A DNA stretch of 32,359 nucleotides, taken from an uncultured Verrucomicrobiota bacterium (GTDB lineage Bacteria > Verrucomicrobiota > Kiritimatiellia > RFP12 > UBA1067). Shown in pieces: positions 2,940 to 27,843 of the stretch. The notes beneath the pieces are model-generated. The model was not told the DNA's origin and searched no databases. It worked only from the letters and a program-made list of their open reading frames with translations. Numbering within the stretch: the first letter of the stretch is position 1; every line of letters begins with the position of its first letter. The stretch lies in assembly GCA_945834475.1 (NCBI GenBank), contig CAMAHK010000020.1, positions 1-32,359 of the forward strand, written 5' to 3'. Made by a program: the position numbers and the translations under genes.

Positions 2940-3185
2940 ATGAGCTGGCAAGATATCGTCAAAACAGAGGAGTATAAGTCCGTGGTGACAGATTACCGCG
3001 CGACGTGCCTTTGGTTTGCCGGCGATGTCTTGCATCCAGAGACGGACGTACAGCTTGAACAGGTCCTTGATGCCATTGAGACCAATGGGGACATGGCGGC
3101 GTTTAAACGTGTAGGGAGAATCAGACGATGGCTGTCACCCGATTTCAGGCCGAAGTACTCAAGCGGATTGCCCGTTCGCGCATAA
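2940..3185 (+). CDS. Small conserved-type protein, partner of the nucleotidyltransferase
   Basis: This 81-residue soluble protein has no signal peptide or membrane segment. Its ATG lies 25 bases after a possible -10 (2910-2915), with no strong ribosome binding site. Its central part, with an aromatic/aspartate patch (LWFAGDV) and a following helix ending in RIRRWL, resembles to me the short proteins often encoded just before AbiEii-like nucleotidyltransferases; that is recollection, not a search result. Its last 58 bases overlap the start of the nucleotidyltransferase gene in another frame, which suggests coupled translation and an antitoxin-like or accessory role. Toxin-antitoxin function is an inference. 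Confidence 0.55.
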   Translation: MSWQDIVKTEEYKSVVTDYRATCLWFAGDVLHPETDVQLEQVLDAIETNGDMAAFKRVGRIRRWLSPDFRPKYSSGLPVRA

Positions 3186-3544
3186 AGAACGGGGAGACCT
3201 ATGTAGCAGGCGGACTCGCGCTCAATTATCAGTTGGGGCGTCCGAGGCTCTCGTCAGACATTGACGTCTTCAACAACAGCTATGATGCGCTGGTAGCTGC
3301 CGCGGCTGCCGATCGCGCGGCGTTGGTGGAGGCCGGCTACACGATTGACGTTAAACGCGAACGTGACTTCATCATAGAGGTCACGGCATCCAAGGGCGGC
3401 GAGTCGACGGATTTGCAGTGGGTGCAGGATGCGGCGTCGAAGGCAACGGGGCTGAGGTTGGTTGCGGAGCCGTATGATGAGGCGAATCCGGACGTGGGCG
3501 GCCTGTATGTCGAGCGTCGGGGGCTGGTGCTGCTTTCCCAGTAG
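3128..3544 (+). CDS. Truncated AbiEii-like nucleotidyltransferase with a beta-strand-repeat C-terminal tail
   Basis: Residues 1-101 look like the N-terminal half of a nucleotidyltransferase of the AbiEii/MNT superfamily. The helix-turn GGLALNYQLGRPRLSSDIDVF has the GG...hhh...R.S.DID signature in which the two aspartates bind metal and nucleotide. A downstream LQWVQD fits the family's third conserved stretch. From about residue 102 the sequence leaves the family and instead matches the last 30 or so residues of the beta-strand-repeat protein at 186-2903 (AASKATG against AAAKAKG; GLYVERRGLVLLSQ against GLSVGRKGLVLLFQ). Full-length relatives are usually about twice as long. The gene is therefore probably a broken enzyme spliced by recombination to a paralogue's 3' end, and likely inactive or altered. 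Confidence 0.6.
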   Translation: MAVTRFQAEVLKRIARSRIKNGETYVAGGLALNYQLGRPRLSSDIDVFNNSYDALVAAAAADRAALVEAGYTIDVKRERDFIIEVTASKGGESTDLQWVQDAASKATGLRLVAEPYDEANPDVGGLYVERRGLVLLSQ

Positions 3545-3598: not shown

Positions 3599-5074
3599 AT
3601 GAATAGACGGGCGTTTTTGCAGGGGTTCTTGGCTTCGGCGGGATTTGTCTCGCTGGGCGGGAGTCGCAATTTGTTTGCGGCGCCGGCGGGTTGGAGTCCG
3701 GCCGGGAAGGCGAATCTTACCTTTGGTGTCTTGAGCGATCTGCACGTGCGGCTCTGGAAGGATGGGAAGTCCCTTAGCTACCATCACGACACGAAGACGT
3801 TCCGCAAGGCGCTTGAGTACTTCAAGTCGCGCGGCGTCGACGCGGTGATGATTGCGGGCGACCTCGCCGACAAGGGTCTCACGGACGAACTGGAGGCGAT
3901 CGCACAGGTGTGGTACGAGGTCTTCCCCGAGGGCTGCGGCGTCGAGAAGATCTTTGTCTACGGTAACCACGACCTCGACGGACACAACTACGGCAACTAT
4001 GCCGCGCAGTGTTTCAAGGATGAGGATATCCGCAAGCAACATATTCTCGCGACGGACATGAAGGGCAACTGGGAGCGCATCTTCCACGAATCCGAATCGT
4101 CCGTTTTCATGAAGACCGTCAAAGGCTACCGCTTCATCGGCTCGCAGTGGGATCACCACATCGAATGCGAGGGCGGCGACTTCGGGACGCTTTTGAAGCC
4201 GTTCCTTGACGCGCACAAGGACGAACTTACGGGCGACAAGCCGTTCTTCTACGTGCAGCACGCGCACCTCAAGGACACGGTGTTCGGTCCCTGGGCCTGG
4301 GGTCACGACGACGGCGGCGCGACCGCCGCGCTTTCGGCGTATCCGAACGCGGTCGCATTCTCGGGACACTCCCATTTCTCCGAAACGGACGAGCGCGCGA
4401 TCTGGCAGGGGGCGTTCACGGCCGTCTGCTGTTCGTCGCTTCGCTACACGGGTCTCATCGACTGCTTCCGTGGCGACGTGAAGCCCGATTACGAAAACGG
4501 CTTTTCGGGCGGCGAGTCGGCGATCATGCCGCGCTACGATTCGAACGACGGACAGCAGGGTCTCCTCGTGAGCGTCTACGACGACGCAATCGTCTACGAA
4601 CGCCACGACTTCCGCTACGGCCGCAAGCTCGGTGCGGACTGGGTGCAGATGCTAGTACCCGGCGTGACCTCACGCCGTGGCGCTGATTCGCAACCCCCGT
4701 TCGCCTTTGAACCCCGCAAGGCGAAGGAGGTGCCGCCGGCTTTCGCTGCGGATGCGACGATCACGACGAAGACGACCGAGGGCAAGAAGCGCGGGAAGGG
4801 ACGCCAGCCGACGCTGGAGGCAATCGAGATCCGCTTCCCGGCGGCGAACGCGAGCGTGACGCGTCCGTACGGGTACCGGGTGCGGGTGGGCGAAGTCGAG
4901 CGGTTTGTGTTGGCGCAGGGGTATAACATGCCGCTTGAGGACCAGCGGGCTCAGGGCGAGTCGTACATCACGCTTGCGAAGGCGATTCTGCCAAAGGGTG
5001 AGAAGCTGAAAGTCACGGTCGAACCATTCTCCTCCTTCGGCACTTTCGGCAACCCAATCGAAGGCTCGCTCTGA
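3599..5074 (+). CDS. Tat-exported calcineurin-like metallophosphoesterase
   Basis: This 491-residue protein belongs to the calcineurin-like phosphoesterase superfamily, which hydrolyses phosphomono- or diesters with two metals. The metal-binding motifs appear in order: D47-x-H49 (SDLH), G87-D88, G122-N-H-D125, H221-x-H223 and G256-H-S-H259. The N-terminus (NRRAFLQGFLASAG) has a twin arginine and a hydrophobic stretch, so export through Tat is expected. About 170 residues after the core form a beta-rich tail of unknown role. The substrate cannot be named; relatives include nucleotidases and sugar-phosphate or phospholipid phosphatases. Its TGA overlaps the ATG of the transporter gene (TGATG at 5072-5076), implying translational coupling. 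Confidence 0.85.
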   Translation: MNRRAFLQGFLASAGFVSLGGSRNLFAAPAGWSPAGKANLTFGVLSDLHVRLWKDGKSLSYHHDTKTFRKALEYFKSRGVDAVMIAGDLADKGLTDELEAIAQVWYEVFPEGCGVEKIFVYGNHDLDGHNYGNYAAQCFKDEDIRKQHILATDMKGNWERIFHESESSVFMKTVKGYRFIGSQWDHHIECEGGDFGTLLKPFLDAHKDELTGDKPFFYVQHAHLKDTVFGPWAWGHDDGGATAALSAYPNAVAFSGHSHFSETDERAIWQGAFTAVCCSSLRYTGLIDCFRGDVKPDYENGFSGGESAIMPRYDSNDGQQGLLVSVYDDAIVYERHDFRYGRKLGADWVQMLVPGVTSRRGADSQPPFAFEPRKAKEVPPAFAADATITTKTTEGKKRGKGRQPTLEAIEIRFPAANASVTRPYGYRVRVGEVERFVLAQGYNMPLEDQRAQGESYITLAKAILPKGEKLKVTVEPFSSFGTFGNPIEGSL

Positions 5075-6165
5075 TGGAGAAAACCTCCCGCCATTGTCCA
5101 CCTCCACCTCATCTCTCCACTTCTTTCTCACTCTCCACTTTGTTCTTGCTCTTCCTCGAGCTCTTCAAGATCTCGCTTTTCATCATCGGAGGCGGGTATA
5201 CCATCATTGCGGCGGCAGACCAGACGTTTGCCAAGAAGGGGTGGACAAAGGAGGGCGAGCTCCTCGACCATTTGCCGATCTTTCAGATGATTCCGGGGCT
5301 CATCGCGACGCACACGGCCGTCTACGTCGGGCGCAAGGTCGCGGGACGTCTCGGCGCGGCGGTCGGCGTTCTCGCGGTTGCGCTCCCGAGCATCATCATC
5401 TTTACGGGCGTTGCAATGGGCTACCAGGCGATCCCGCTTGGGAATCCGTACCTCGAATCAGCGTTCGTCGGGCTTCGAAGTGCGCTCACCGGTATCATTG
5501 CGGCAACGATCATTCGCGGCTGGAAGAAGTCCCTCCCCGACGCCTTCGCCTATGGTGTCGGCGTGGCCGCGCTCGCGGCGCTCCTCGCGGGCGTGGCGGT
5601 CCCGTGGGTCTTGGCCGGGGCGATGATTTTAGGCGTAGGCTCAGGGTGTAGGGGTGCGAAGGAAAAGAAGACATCCTCCGCTCTACACCTACGCCTTTCG
5701 ACTACACCTATAGCCCTCCTCCTCTTCCTCAAGTACGGGGCGCTTTGCTTTGGCGGCGGATTCGTGCTGGTGCCAATGTATATTGAGGACTTTGTCGGTC
5801 CGACGGCGCATTTCTTGCAGATTACGACGGAAGAATTTGCGAACCTGATGGCGCTCACGCAGATGACGCCCGGTCCGATCGGGGTCAATGGGGCGACCTA
5901 CTTCGGTTTTCAGCTCGCAGGGATCCCCGGGGCGGTGCTCGCCTCGATATTTTTGCTCCTGCCGGGCTCGTTGCTCGCGTATCTGGCCTTTGCCTCGCTC
6001 GAGCGCTTTCAGACGAGCCGAATCGTCCGCGGTATTTTGCGCGGCGTCAAGCCCGCGTCCGTCGCGCTGATGCTGGTTGCGCTCGTTGCCTTCGCGAAAA
6101 TGAGTGTCTTTGGCAGACAAGAATTTAATACAATCGCGTTGATAATTGCTATAATATGTACTCTT
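5074..6165 (+). CDS. chrA: Two-domain chromate-type (ChrA/CHR family) membrane transporter
   Basis: Two homologous CHR domains are visible. The first covers residues about 28-185 (GGGYTII near 39 and PGLIATHTAVYVG near 90); the second covers about 210-385 (FGGGFVLVPM and PGPIGVNGATYFG). In known members this architecture exports chromate by proton antiport, but gut relatives may carry other oxyanions. Residues 1-27 are an unusual Ser/Leu/Pro-rich extension from CT-rich DNA. The linker between domains (5629-5712) is a degenerate 7-bp repeat. There is no stop codon before the next gene: the frame runs on through 6166 to 9924. I end the entry just before the ATG at 6166 only for convenience, because the expected last membrane helix (about residues 367-388) lies beyond it and doubles as the next protein's signal peptide. 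Confidence 0.75.
5629..5712. repeat. Degenerate heptad repeat with inverted arms in the transporter linker
   Basis: TAGGCGT/AGGCTCA/GGGTGTA reads in 7-base steps from 5630. The opposite-strand version CTACACC/TACGCCT/TTCGACT/ACACCTA runs from 5683. CTACACCTA occurs twice (5683-5691 and 5702-5710). The two sides are partly complementary and can pair. The stretch is translated in frame as a hydrophilic, low-complexity linker between the two transporter domains, where length change would be tolerated. Confidence 0.6.
6147..6155 (+). promoter_or_regulatory. Internal extended -10 promoter for the DUF3857/transglutaminase gene
   Basis: TGCTATAAT lies inside the open frame at the end of the transporter. 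TATAAT ends at 6155 and the first ATG begins at 6166, ten bases later, with no ribosome binding site between. A transcript starting about seven bases after the hexamer would be nearly leaderless. No clear -35 is seen. Its match to the promoters at 16592-16600 and 26482-26490 supports a real start here. Confidence 0.6.
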
Positions 6166-9100
6166 ATGACGATGAAGAAGAAATTGAATGTTGTGCTCCT
6201 CGTGGTTCTGGCGTCGCTGGCGGCGACGGCCGTGCGGGCGGACGAGGTGACAGTCGAACGTTTCCCTGATGCGGATTCGGTGCTCGTCGACAGTCTGTCG
6301 AAGATTACTTACAAGCCGGACGGTTCTTATGAGGAGATCAGCGAGAGCTGGACGAAGATCCTGACCGAGAAGGGGCGGCGCGACGAAAGTGTCATTTCGA
6401 TGCGCTACTCGAAGCGCTACGGCAACGCCGAGATCCTGTATGTCGGCGCGATCGGCACGAACGGCGTCGAGCGTGTGATCGACATTTCGAAGACGACGAA
6501 GGAGTCGACGGACAACTCGTCGATGTCCGTCAACATCTACGATCCGCTCGACCGGCGCATCGTCTGCACGATTCCGAACCTGAAGGTCGGCGAGACCGTC
6601 CACACGAAGACGCGCTCGGCTGAGACGAAGGCGCGCTGCGAGGGCGTCTGGAGCGACATCAACGTCTTCGAGTGGTCGTGTCCGATCCTGAAGTCGACGG
6701 TCGAGATCACAGCCCCGAAGGAACTACCGCTCAAGAAGAAGACGATCCTGAATCCCCTCGGCAATGTGACGGCGACGGAGAAGGAGCTTGCGGACGGCTC
6801 GATCCTGCACACGTGGGTCGCGACCAATTCGCCGCAGTGCTTCCCCGAGCCGGCGATGCCGCGCCTCTTCACCGAGGTGCAGCACATGCGCGTTTCGACG
6901 GCCGAGACGTGGGAGGAGCTCTCGCAGTGGTACTGGAACCTCTGCCTGCCGCACATCATGAAGACGACGCCGGCGATGACGAACAAGGTCGAGGAAGTGC
7001 TGGTCGGGCTGAAGGACGACGATGCGAAGATCCGCGCGATCTTCAAGTTTGTCTCGCAGGAGATCCGCTACATGGGGCTCACGATGGAAGACACGTCCCC
7101 CGGCTACGCGCCGCACGACATCGATGTCACGTTCGACAACCGCTACGGCGTCTGCCGCGACAAGGCGGGGCTCCTGGTGGCGTTGCTGCGCATTGCGGGC
7201 TTCGAGGCGTATCCCGTCCTCATCCACGTCGCCGAGAAGATCGACCCGTCCGTGCCGCGTCCCTTCTTCAATCATGCGATCGTCGCCGTGGACCGTGGGA
7301 GTCGCTCTTACATGCTGATGGACCCGACGAACGAGAACGCGAAGGACCTCTTCCCGGCGTACGAGAGCGACAAGAGCTACCTCGTGGCGCGTCCCGACGG
7401 GGAGACGCTGCTGACGACGCCGATCCCGACGGCCGAGCATAACCAGCTCAAGGTCAATTCGCACGCGCGGCTCGCGCAGGACGGTTCGATGTTCCTCGAG
7501 AACGAGATCTTCTTCAACGGCATCAACGACTCCGTCTACCGCGAGAGCTTCGTGAAGATGACGAGCGAGGCGCGCACGAAGTTTTTCGAGCGCGTCGTCA
7601 GGGCGGTCGCGCCGGGCGCGGAGCTCGTGCGCTGCTCGGTCGAGCCGGAGAACATGCTCGACACCGAGACGCCGATCCGCGTCGTGCTGTCGTCGCGCCT
7701 TCCCGAGGCGGTGCTTCCGGGCGAGACGTGCGGCGAACTGATGGTGCCGTTCGTGACGCGCGCCCTCGGCATGGCGAACTTCATTCTGAACGGCAACACG
7801 GCGCTTGAGAAGCGGCGCTTCAAGCTGACGCTCGACTCGACGGCGTCCGTCTGCGAGACGATCGAGATCGAGCTCAACGGCGCGCTCGGCGCGGTGAAGG
7901 AGCTTCCGGGCGACGAGGCGATCCAGGGCGGCTACAACTACAACCGTTCGTTCCGGTATGCGGACGGCAAGCTTACGGCGCACCGCTGCGCGGCGGTGAC
8001 GTCCGTCGAGTTCACGCCGGAGGAGTACGCGCAGCTCCGGGAGGACATCAAGCGCACTGAGGCGGCGGAGCGGAAGCGTCCAGTCTTCTTCAACGACCGT
8101 ACGTCGGGGGCGGACGTTCGGTGGCGTCTCGAGTCGACGGAAGTCGACATCTTCGGTCCGCACAGCTGGGTTAGTACGAATCGTATCGAGAAGGAAATTC
8201 TCACGTACGAGGGTAAGAAGAGCTCAGCAGAACTCAAGTTCTCTTATAATCCCGCGATCCAGGATTTGAAGCTCCTTTCGGCGAGCGTCCGCAACAAGGA
8301 CGGCACGGAGTACGCGGTCTCGGAGAAGGAGATCAACGTGATGGACTGCGGCTGGGCGGCCGCGGCGCCGCGCTATCCGGCCGGCAAGCTCCTCGTCGTC
8401 AACCTGCCGTCCGTCGAGATCGGCAGCACGATCAGCTACACGCTCGTCAACGTGATGACGAACGCGCCGGCCTCGTTCTACACGACGTTCGGCTTTGACG
8501 CGAAGGATCCGCTTGACCGCCGTTATGTGCGCCTCAACGATTGGACACGCGAGGTGATCAATCCGCGGCGCATCCCGAATGAGCCCGGCCAGCCCTATTC
8601 GTCGCTCTGGCGCGACCAACTCATCGTCTCGTCCAACGACTTCTCGCAGCTGATGGCCGAATTCCGCGCGGCGGACGACGCGGCGGTAGGCACGGACGCG
8701 GCGCTCGAGGCGGCACTCGAGACGATTGCGAAGGAGGAGCAGGCGACACTCGTCGGCACGAACGGCGTCGTCGCGATCCGCAACTGGATGACGAAGCACG
8801 TCTCGGTCGCGGGGCCCTCGCTCTGGGAGCTGCCGTTCAAGGACCAGTTCACGTCCCCCGACGTGATTCTCGCCGAGCGCTACGCGACGCGCGTCGACTA
8901 TGTGCGCACGCTCGCAGCGCTCTATCGCGCGGCGGGCTACGAGGCGGATGTCGTCCTCGCGGGCACAGACGCGGCCTACCCGGAGGACCTCCGCAAGCGG
9001 ACGCGCTACGAGAAGCCGAACGCCTACGAGTTCGCCCACGCGCTCTGCCGCGTGACGGTGAAGTCGGGCGGGTTCCTCGGCTTCTTCCGGGATTCGGTGA

Positions 9101-9924
9101 CGTACTTCGTCGGCACGGAGAACGAGTACTTGCCGCTCGGCATCTGCGCGTATCAGGGCAACGGATTCCTCGATCCGTCGACGGCCGAGTTCGGTACGGT
9201 GATCGTGCCGCAGGACGGGACGTACTACTACGACTACACGTCGCAGACGAAGGAACTCGAGGTGCGCGAGAACGGCGGCGTTGACATGGTCGTCAAGACT
9301 GTGTTGTGGGGCAATCCCGTCGGGGCGTTCCGCAAGCAGTACGCGGAGATCCTGCCCGAGGACCGCAACCGACTCCACCAGAAGATTCTTGGCTCGATCG
9401 CGCAGGCCGCGACGGCGACGGGCGAGCTCGAGGCGGACATCACGAGCTATCCGGCGCGCCGCGAATTCAAGTGCTTCGTGCCCGACTACGCGACGGTGGC
9501 GGGCGACACAATCACGCTGCAGCTGCCGGCGCTGATCTCGACGATTCCGAACTATGCAGGCAAGGTTCGCCGCACACCATTCGCCGTGGCGGGCGCAGGG
9601 GCCGAGGACGAGACGTACGTCATTCGTTTCCCTGAGGGCTACACCGAGATCGAGCATCTGCCTCAGTCGTTTACGTTCGCGAATCCCTACGACAGCAACT
9701 TCCCGTGGCTCGTCGCGAAGGTGGCTTCACGTATTGACGACGACGGCCGTCTCGTGGTCGAGATCCGCCGCGACGTGAAGGGTCGGACATATTCGTGGTA
9801 CTACGCCGATTTCATCGAGCTTATCCGCGACCGCAACCGGATCGCCGCCTCGCGGGCGAACCGGACGATCGTGGTGCGCAAGACCGTACCGTCCGCGTCC
9901 TCGCGGACTGGCGCTGGCAAGTAA
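6166..9924 (+). CDS. Secreted DUF3857/transglutaminase-like tandem protein
   Basis: Starting at ATG 6166 (or 6172), this is a 1252-residue protein with a clear signal peptide (MKKK start, hydrophobic core, cleavage after VRA). It contains two DUF3857-plus-transglutaminase-core units. The first has the papain-like triad: C330 in YGVCRDKAG, H370 in FFNHAIVAVD and D386 in MLMDPTNE. The second (about residues 700-1000) keeps the fold signature ERYATRVDYVRTLAALYRAAGYEA but has Arg in place of the Cys and Gly in place of the Asp, with only H958 retained, so it is probably non-catalytic. Related proteins are periplasmic and often sit near sugar- or peptide-processing genes, but no substrate is established here. 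The reading frame is continuous with the upstream transporter. The last 13 residues are encoded by repeat copy D. Confidence 0.8.
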   Translation: MTMKKKLNVVLLVVLASLAATAVRADEVTVERFPDADSVLVDSLSKITYKPDGSYEEISESWTKILTEKGRRDESVISMRYSKRYGNAEILYVGAIGTNGVERVIDISKTTKESTDNSSMSVNIYDPLDRRIVCTIPNLKVGETVHTKTRSAETKARCEGVWSDINVFEWSCPILKSTVEITAPKELPLKKKTILNPLGNVTATEKELADGSILHTWVATNSPQCFPEPAMPRLFTEVQHMRVSTAETWEELSQWYWNLCLPHIMKTTPAMTNKVEEVLVGLKDDDAKIRAIFKFVSQEIRYMGLTMEDTSPGYAPHDIDVTFDNRYGVCRDKAGLLVALLRIAGFEAYPVLIHVAEKIDPSVPRPFFNHAIVAVDRGSRSYMLMDPTNENAKDLFPAYESDKSYLVARPDGETLLTTPIPTAEHNQLKVNSHARLAQDGSMFLENEIFFNGINDSVYRESFVKMTSEARTKFFERVVRAVAPGAELVRCSVEPENMLDTETPIRVVLSSRLPEAVLPGETCGELMVPFVTRALGMANFILNGNTALEKRRFKLTLDSTASVCETIEIELNGALGAVKELPGDEAIQGGYNYNRSFRYADGKLTAHRCAAVTSVEFTPEEYAQLREDIKRTEAAERKRPVFFNDRTSGADVRWRLESTEVDIFGPHSWVSTNRIEKEILTYEGKKSSAELKFSYNPAIQDLKLLSASVRNKDGTEYAVSEKEINVMDCGWAAAAPRYPAGKLLVVNLPSVEIGSTISYTLVNVMTNAPASFYTTFGFDAKDPLDRRYVRLNDWTREVINPRRIPNEPGQPYSSLWRDQLIVSSNDFSQLMAEFRAADDAAVGTDAALEAALETIAKEEQATLVGTNGVVAIRNWMTKHVSVAGPSLWELPFKDQFTSPDVILAERYATRVDYVRTLAALYRAAGYEADVVLAGTDAAYPEDLRKRTRYEKPNAYEFAHALCRVTVKSGGFLGFFRDSVTYFVGTENEYLPLGICAYQGNGFLDPSTAEFGTVIVPQDGTYYYDYTSQTKELEVRENGGVDMVVKTVLWGNPVGAFRKQYAEILPEDRNRLHQKILGSIAQAATATGELEADITSYPARREFKCFVPDYATVAGDTITLQLPALISTIPNYAGKVRRTPFAVAGAGAEDETYVIRFPEGYTEIEHLPQSFTFANPYDSNFPWLVAKVASRIDDDGRLVVEIRRDVKGRTYSWYYADFIELIRDRNRIAASRANRTIVVRKTVPSASSRTGAGK
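9884..9917 (+). repeat. Solo half of the CCGTACCG palindromic repeat (copy D), coding
   Basis: This 34-bp stretch begins CCGTACCG and folds as GTCCGCG (9891-9897), loop TCCT, CGCGGAC (9902-9908). Its first 33 bases match the reverse complement of 11587-11619 in copy B at 29 positions. Two of the four differences are a paired C-G to T-A change that preserves the stem. It encodes the C-terminal residues VPSASSRTGAG of the secreted protein. Confidence 0.8.
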
Positions 9925-9946: not shown

Positions 9947-11026
9947 ATGAAGAAACTCGTGCTGACGTTCGCTCTCTCGGCGGCGGCTGTTGCCGGCGCT
10001 GCCGTGTCACCTGTCCAGACGCTTTGGAAGGCGGGGGACAACGGGATCAAGATCTACCGCATTCCGGCGTTGTGCACGGCGCCGAACGGGGATCTCGTCG
10101 CGGCGTGTGACGCGCGCACGAACCACGGCGGCGACCTCAATACCTGCCAGCCGATCAACATCACGATCCGCCGCTCGAGCGACAACGGCAAGACGTGGAC
10201 GGCACCCAAGAACTCGTACACGTGGACGTGGACCGACGTCGAGAAGTGGGCGGGTTCGGATCCCTCGCTGATCGTTGACAACGAGGCGAAGAAGATCTTC
10301 CTCTTCTACAACGTGTGGGAGTGCAAGCACAACTACGGCGTCTACCAGTTCTGGGTGCAGGAATCGTCCGACAACGGCAAGACGTGGTCCAAGCCGCGCG
10401 ACATCTCGAAGGACATCGCCTTCGACGCCTGGCCGTTCGGCAAGCGCCAGAATCAGGGCGGCTTCATCTTCATCACGTCCGGTTCGGGCATCCAGACGAA
10501 GGACGGCACGCTTCTTCACACGCTCGTCCATGTCGGCGACGGCAACGCGCTCTTCGGCTCGACCGACCACGGCAAGACGTGGAAGGCGATCGGCACGCCC
10601 GTCAAGTGCGGCGACGAGTGCAAGGTCGTCGAACTCAACGACGGCACGTGGATGATCAACTCGCGTTGGCGCGGCGGCGGGCGTCAGATCCATGTCTCGA
10701 AGGATCGTGGCCAGACGTGGGAGTCGCGCTACGACAACACGCTGCGCGATCCGCAGTGTAATGCGCAGATCATGCGCGTCGGCAAGACGCTTCTCTTCTC
10801 GAACTGCAACTCGGGCGGCCGCAACAATCTCTACCTGCGTGCCTCGCTTGACGACGGCCAGACCTGGAACGAGGGCATCTCAATTTGTCCGCAGGGCGCC
10901 GCGTACAGCGACATCACGATCACGAAAGACAAGCAGGTCGGCATCCTCTACGAAGGCGCCGGCTATGCGACGATTGATTTCGTGACCGTCCCGCTTGCCG
11001 ACGTGAAGGCGAGTCTGGGGAAGTGA
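9947..11026 (+). CDS. Exo-alpha-sialidase (GH33-type), secreted
   Basis: This 359-residue protein has a short signal peptide (about residues 1-19). It carries the sialidase hallmarks: YRIP at 37-40, whose arginine belongs to the carboxylate-binding triad, and five Asp boxes of the form SxDxGxTW, the first at 77-84. R56 and the D63 region lie in the usual acid/base segment. A late AYSDI gives Y320, the expected nucleophile, followed by an LYEG segment with its partner glutamate. It should release terminal sialic acids from host mucin glycans in the periplasm or outside the cell. AAAGGAG sits just upstream of the ATG. The next gene encodes a mutarotase-like/symporter fusion, which fits capture of the released sugar. 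It lies 22 bases after the transglutaminase gene, possibly co-transcribed. Confidence 0.88.
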   Translation: MKKLVLTFALSAAAVAGAAVSPVQTLWKAGDNGIKIYRIPALCTAPNGDLVAACDARTNHGGDLNTCQPINITIRRSSDNGKTWTAPKNSYTWTWTDVEKWAGSDPSLIVDNEAKKIFLFYNVWECKHNYGVYQFWVQESSDNGKTWSKPRDISKDIAFDAWPFGKRQNQGGFIFITSGSGIQTKDGTLLHTLVHVGDGNALFGSTDHGKTWKAIGTPVKCGDECKVVELNDGTWMINSRWRGGGRQIHVSKDRGQTWESRYDNTLRDPQCNAQIMRVGKTLLFSNCNSGGRNNLYLRASLDDGQTWNEGISICPQGAAYSDITITKDKQVGILYEGAGYATIDFVTVPLADVKASLGK

Positions 11027-26449: not shown

Positions 26450-26482
26450 AAAACGCCCCGCGGAAACCGCGGGGCGTTTTTT
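26450..26482 (+). terminator. Intrinsic terminator after rplI
   Basis: The stem AAAACGCCCCGCGG (26450-26463) pairs perfectly with 26467-26480 around an AAA loop, and the T-run extends to 26482. The -10 of the next gene starts three bases later, so terminator and promoter are packed end to end. Confidence 0.93.
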
Positions 26483-26490
26483 GTTATAAT
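26482..26490 (+). promoter_or_regulatory. Promoter of the U32 family gene, close to the start codon
   Basis: TGTTATAAT, with the hexamer at 26485-26490, abuts the terminator T-run. The ATG at 26499 starts nine bases after the hexamer ends, exactly as at manC, and no Shine-Dalgarno sequence is present. No recognisable -35 exists because that position falls inside the terminator stem. A leaderless transcript is predicted. Confidence 0.7.
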
Positions 26491-27770: not shown

Positions 27771-27834
27771 CGGGTTTGATTGAGTAATGCGATTGAAGAA
27801 GTAGAATTTGATATATCCATTCCTCTTTGAAGTT

Positions 27835-27843
27835 TGCTATAAT
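27835..27843 (+). promoter_or_regulatory. Promoter of the sugar-oxidation cluster
   Basis: TGCTATAAT, with TATAAT at 27838-27843. The leader to the ATG at 27873 is about 23 bases and contains AGGAG (27863-27867), so this transcript is conventional, unlike manC. A weaker TGATATAT lies at 27810-27817. The gap 27771-27834 shows nothing else. Confidence 0.7.

Follow-up and report, generated by a model that had tools for sequence, protein, structure and literature searches.

The window analysed here is a stretch of 32,359 nucleotides from contig C20 of the draft genome (2.57 Mb, 134 contigs, 86% complete) of an uncultured Verrucomicrobiota bacterium. Within it, a CHR transporter and a DUF3857/transglutaminase protein are encoded in one reading frame (Table 1). 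The original prediction held that no stop separates the two, and the frame is indeed open throughout its 1616 codons; searches with the PF02417 and DUF3857 profiles found it to be both the sole CHR gene and the sole DUF3857 gene of the genome. The start of the CHR part overlaps the stop of the metallophosphoesterase-like gene upstream, and CHR is therefore probably co-transcribed with that gene. A small ORF at 3128-3544 has a weak AbiEii-like match, slightly below the Pfam cut-off, and 22 nt past the fused ORF begins a sialidase-like BNR-repeat gene (9947-11026) that has an AAGGAG of its own.

The CHR part carries two Chromate_transp domains within about 400 residues, the arrangement by which LCHR proteins are recognized. 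Against TIGR00937, the NCBI subfamily of chromate efflux transporters, it scores 132.7 bits, below the cut-off of 171.7; for this reason we refer to it as a CHR-family protein and do not claim chromate efflux. Its DNA includes a CT-rich low-complexity stretch at the N-terminus (5080-5140) and inverted-repeat-like DNA (GGCGTAGG...CCTACGCC) in the linker between the CHR halves (5631-5720). In the enzyme part, Transglut_core exceeds the Pfam cut-off and spans residues 640-750 of the fused protein. A putative catalytic Cys-His-Asp triad is present; among the 12 fused proteins described below, the Cys and His motifs are found in all and the Asp motif pattern in 11. The second DUF3857 domain is a weak sequence match to the solved structure 3kd4. 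By eye, a second transglutaminase-like stretch (ERYATRVDYVRTL ... EFAHALCRV), apparently without the catalytic Cys, can be made out at 8875-9100.

Table 1. Features of the fused locus, in order along the window.
Feature	Position	Strand	Basis or remark
Metallophosphoesterase-like gene, upstream	3599-5074	+	TGATG overlap between its stop and the start of CHR
Fused ORF, CHR transporter and DUF3857/transglutaminase protein	5074-9924	+	1616 aa; single open frame without internal stop
CHR domain 1 (Chromate_transp, PF02417)	5149-5637	+	108.4 bits, profile positions 3-166, over cut-off
CHR domain 2 (PF02417)	5719-6222	+	118.6 bits, positions 5-164 of 166, over cut-off; match extends through the shared helix
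Putative extended -10 promoter TTGCTATAAT, within codons of the next-to-last CHR helix	6146-6155	+	Genome motif; TATAAT enrichment at junctions
Likely nested start ATG (Met365)	6166-6168	+	10 nt after TATAAT (6150-6155); second in-frame ATG at 6172 (Met367)
Shared helix KKKLNVVLLVVLASLAATAVRA (residues 368-389), probable final membrane helix of CHR and putative signal peptide	6175-6240	+	Alignment to separate CHR tails, profile fit, helix score matrices
Predicted signal peptidase I site V-R-A/D, after residue 389, before D390	6232-6243	+	Ala at -1 conserved in fusions; cleavage inferred
DUF3857 domain 1	6316-6834	+	57.0 bits, over cut-off
Transglutaminase-like catalytic triad Cys694 (GVC), His734 (NHA), Asp750 (MDP)	7144-7323	+	Motifs located in the sequence
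DUF3857 domain 2	8161-8538	+	69.7 bits, over cut-off

The original prediction proposed looking for the same junction in related genomes, and an uninterrupted CHR-DUF3857 frame is found in 12 of the 60 species sampled from the genus (the grouping supplied with the compared genomes): the analysed genome (G000), G004, G012, G016, G017, G023, G025, G028, G032, G112, G118 and G126. The 11 further fusions are 47-58% identical to the analysed protein across almost its full length. The other genera of the family were also searched, and the fusion was absent among the matches listed for them. In unfused species, the CHR gene runs to about 375-440 codons and the DUF3857 gene to about 1240. The two lie side by side on the same strand in G117, G122 and G101, are 1-2.3 kb or less apart in G030, G034 and G116, and are divergent in G014 (L010/L032), head to head with about 58 bp between the match ends. 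Despite this head-to-head order, both G014 genes rank among the nearest relatives of the analysed fused parts. The CHR gene of G034 (L050) is split across two frames near the DUF3857 gene and is possibly a pseudogene or an assembly error. Where dN/dS was measurable among the fusions, it was 0.09-0.19 for the CHR part, 0.25-0.37 for the junction and 0.16-0.25 for the DUF part; the whole fused frame, junction included, is under purifying selection.

An assembly or base-calling artefact, in which a lost base or a chimaeric join deleted the CHR stop, is scarcely credible: the genome is a fragmented draft and TGATAA does stand in the +1 frame at 6140-6145, as noted in the original prediction, which named a missing or extra base as the way in which the fusion could fail, but 11 other species, at about 50% identity, also have this junction uninterrupted, which rules out a sequencing error, and the junction helix aligns gap-free to CHR tails. 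Judged from these comparisons, transporter and enzyme are genuinely fused in frame.

The helix at the junction can be read in two ways, as the end of the transporter or as the beginning of an exported protein. Its basic start, KKK, is encoded at 6175-6183, and its hydrophobic part comprises residues 371-387. Separate CHR proteins end in a similar manner, with two basic residues, a hydrophobic helix some 17 residues long, in many cases a His or Arg, and a stop within about 10 residues; the fused sequence aligns with these tails without gaps (compare SRRIGVVKIVLLCALASLAVHFG of G030 with KKKLNVVLLVVLASLAATAVRADE of the analysed protein). The clearest pair is G117, in which the genes are separate, and G023, in which they are fused. 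The two are close in the CHR tree and have HVSWC...SVNFN in common, and the G117 transporter ends ...VNFNIAALATAIAAAALVLSKKCSIMTLVLASAAVGAALRA (...GAALRA, stop) where G023 reads on ...VNFNTIAAVIGIISAAMTLKKKIRIAALVLLASSVSCILRADDGIT (...SCILRADDGIT); the G117 enzyme has its own promoter and its own N-terminal signal. More generally, separate enzymes carry a signal peptide of their own, and the fusions are without one of enzyme origin.

Profile comparisons agree with the first reading. The TIGR00937 alignment reaches position 367 of 368 at residue 383, and the PF02417 score rises from 207.4 to 214.9 bits (+7.5 bits) upon addition of the helix, which bears out the earlier proposal that the residues around the junction fit the final helices of a CHR protein. 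We also scored the fused helices with position matrices, one derived from the helices of 31 separate CHR proteins and one from 28 signal peptides of separate DUF3857 proteins; nine of the 12 were closer to CHR, and G016, G023 and G025 were slightly closer to signal peptides. This matrix test is supportive only, because several signal-peptide windows were aligned automatically and a few were poorly placed. For most fusions, the alignments establish homology of the helix to the native last helix of CHR. It is thus most likely, as far as sequence comparison goes, that the junction helix is CHR's own last helix, that it took over export of the enzyme and that the enzyme's signal peptide was lost. 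The enzyme's old signal peptide as the source of the helix is disfavoured by the CHR tail alignments and by the matrices, although the latter leave G016, G023 and G025 undecided. The literature on the topology of the CHR C-terminus yielded nothing decisive. In one paper, 10 helices with the N-terminus outside were predicted; by parity, this would place the CHR C-terminus outside as well.

Read from Met365, the same residues have the features of a Sec signal peptide: an n-region (MTMKKK), an h-region (LNVVLLVVLASLAA) and a segment, TAVRA, with small residues at -3 and -1, followed by DE. A Met just before or after the basic cluster occurs in all 12 fusions, compared with 8 of 31 separate CHR proteins (Fisher 8e-6), and Ala at -1 likewise in all 12, compared with 10 of 30 (Fisher 7e-5); the species are related, these and the other counts across species carry no correction for common ancestry, and neither value is a strict probability. 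The residue at -3 is V, L or A across the fusions, and position -2 is Arg, His or Lys in 11 of 12. A basic residue at -2, here Arg, is not what the c-region of a signal peptide usually shows, and it is in keeping with descent from CHR. The suggestion that the junction helix doubles as a signal peptide thus gains from the conservation of both Met and Ala. In a polytopic protein, a signal peptidase I site that had been engineered behind the last helix was used to release the C-terminal domain (PMC5449189), which makes cleavage of the fusion by signal peptidase I after Ala389 plausible. The fusion had also been described as possibly membrane-tethered; the fusion frame itself stands, and a tether would give way to a likely cut at VRA/DEV, predicted from the Ala at -1.

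The DNA that encodes the end of CHR appears to hold a promoter. The original prediction placed an extended -10 element (TGCTATAAT, confirmed at 6147-6155) just before the second start, and this element belongs to a motif of the genome at large: TTGNTATAAT has 177 matches, including 6146-6155, against 5 for the reversed control, and TTTGNTATAAT has 165 exact sites against none for the reversed control. In the window, TTTGNTATAAT occurs at 90-100, 16590-16600, 26480-26490 and 27833-27843. In 30 sampled loci the motif mostly lies 6-10 nt ahead of an ATG, which points to near-leaderless messages, and these look common in this lineage. The spacing between TATAAT at 6150-6155 and the ATG at 6166 is of the same kind.

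Among the 12 fusions, seven have TATAAT at the junction, compared with none of 34 separate CHR 3' ends; about one would be expected in total from synonymous shuffling. The codon-shuffle P value is below 0.01 in the analysed genome and in G023, and 0.10-0.32 in each of G016, G017, G112, G126 and G004. GC3 falls at the junction of promoter-bearing fusions (from 0.85 to 0.50 in the analysed genome), and a comparable fall was not seen in separate CHR 3' ends. Position and spacing of the element vary between lineages: G023 (TTGGTATAAT) has the same 10-nt spacing as the analysed genome, in G004 TTTGGTATAAT lies farther upstream of the nested ATG, and in G017, G112 and G126 TATAAT lies about 60 nt upstream. 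AGGAG precedes the nested ATG only in G017 and G112, and is not found there in the analysed genome, so that a universal Shine-Dalgarno start can be rejected. A universal nested promoter can be rejected as well, since a consensus box was not found at the junctions of G012, G032, G118, G025 and G028, and in G016 TATAAT overlaps the ATG and leaves no usable consensus promoter. Production of the enzyme in these six species may depend on its being fused, and this speaks for a functional long product. The tandem genes of G122 (L063) have a promoter-like TTTGATATACT for the enzyme within the last codons of CHR, whose stop lies 14 nt ahead of the enzyme ATG; this arrangement is a possible intermediate towards fusion.

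We suggest, with a probability of roughly 0.6, that both products are made: CHR only as part of the fusion, which would probably be cut after VRA, and the enzyme alone from an internal near-leaderless promoter. CHR lacks a stop codon, so that it can be made only as the fusion; ribosomes translating it would continue into the DUF3857/transglutaminase protein. Residues 371-387 would cross the membrane from inside to outside and carry the enzyme across, with KKK inside and RADE outside as expected from the positive-inside rule. The signal peptides of the separate relatives indicate that the enzyme belongs outside. Signal peptidase I would then probably cut after Val-Arg-Ala389 and free the enzyme. 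In addition, the promoter at 6146-6155 would start a short near-leaderless transcript with ATG 6166 as its first codon, and initiation there would turn the shared helix into an N-terminal signal peptide, giving the secreted enzyme alone. The transporter and the enzyme presumably work together. Of the three outcomes originally offered (the fusion, a nested secreted protein or both), the last is the best, the fusion, the dual-role helix and the nested start each being backed by relatives.

It is unlikely, in our view, that the locus makes only a tethered fusion, that is, one 1616-residue membrane protein with the enzyme attached outside, the -10 box and the ATG being there by chance. Such a product would agree with the lack of a stop in 12 species, with the six fusions that have no usable consensus promoter and with purifying selection over the whole frame. 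However, the site in the analysed genome matches the genome's own promoter and spacing, TATAAT is enriched at junctions and accompanied by a fall in GC3, and Met and Ala at -1 are kept in all 12 fusions, when a plain tether would not need Ala at -1. About as unlikely is the reverse scenario, a nested gene only, in which the enzyme comes from the internal promoter, read-through from CHR yields little or is cleaved at once, and the loss of the stop was nearly neutral. The embedded promoter and start of the analysed genome, together with the leadered versions with AGGAG in G017 and G112, are what this scenario has to offer; against it, a ribosome cannot complete CHR without making the fusion, a promoter is not visible in several of the fused genes, and the fusion appears to have arisen more than once and has persisted over large divergence.

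The number of origins was approached through phylogeny. The fused state needs six changes in the CHR tree and equally in the DUF3857 tree. For the CHR tree, the AU test rejects a single fused clade (p 4.7e-6), also when the long-branched G023 is left out (p 1.6e-4), and it rejects one clade made up of the larger group's eight fusions (p 0.007); a clade of G000 with G012, G016, G025, G032 and G118 is not rejected (p 0.051). We infer that the genes fused in place three or more times, perhaps six. In the fuller form of this scenario, which we hold tentatively and at a little under even odds, the same neighbour genes became joined in frame on at least three occasions, and perhaps on six, the enzyme's signal peptide was dropped each time for the transporter's last helix, and the transporter codons newly acquired a promoter and a translation start for the enzyme. 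A single ancient fusion that was later split many times or passed from species to species, which is compatible with any reading of the products, would agree with the likeness of the junctions (a basic residue, Ala and Asp at the boundary in most) and with the TATAAT-10 nt-ATG arrangement common to G000 and G023. We regard it as unlikely, given the outcome of the AU test and the six changes in both trees. In addition, fused CHR genes have the same upstream neighbours as separate ones (in one group folP and an exonuclease, in another a QueD-like gene, names assigned by eye), and separate CHR tails resemble those of outgroups.

Each half of the fusion has known counterparts. LCHR chromate-type transporters (PF02417/TIGR00937) have, like the analysed CHR part, two CHR domains in about 385 residues including the last helix; the analysed protein differs in falling below the TIGR00937 cut-off and in a C-terminus that runs on into a 1230-residue enzyme. 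Secreted DUF3857-transglutaminase proteins, of which 3kd4 is a solved relative, also combine DUF3857 with a Transglut_core bearing Cys-His-Asp, whereas here a transporter helix stands in place of the enzyme's native signal peptide. Unlike in these known proteins, DUF3857 is duplicated in the analysed enzyme, a duplication common to its separate relatives.

For the junction itself, a precedent is FbcH, the cytochrome b/c1 polyprotein of Bradyrhizobium, in which a polytopic protein and an exported protein are encoded in one ORF and an internal signal sequence is cut by signal peptidase. FbcH is not known to have an internal promoter, and the literature on it yielded nothing decisive. FbcH is a respiratory enzyme, and its proteins are unrelated to CHR-DUF3857. 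In Sec/Tat dual-targeted polytopic proteins such as Sco2149, the last membrane helix serves as the signal sequence for an outer domain, as it would here; those proteins, in contrast, are Tat-dependent, their cleavage site was engineered, and there is no nested gene (PMC5449189). Leaderless genes similarly have a promoter box a few nucleotides ahead of the ATG and no leader (PMC9581028), but the putative promoter analysed here lies inside the codons of another gene, in the same frame.

If these suggestions are correct, some 100 bases in one stretch are subject to four simultaneous constraints, as a membrane helix, a signal peptide with its cleavage site, a promoter and a translation start. The locus would show in nature, and with a possible intermediate, how two genes merge while the independent expression of the second is retained, and gene callers would list the 1616-residue form alone and overlook the secreted product. 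Finally, the pairing of CHR and DUF3857, as neighbours in some species and fused in 12, would provide a functional link for the DUF3857 transglutaminase-like proteins.
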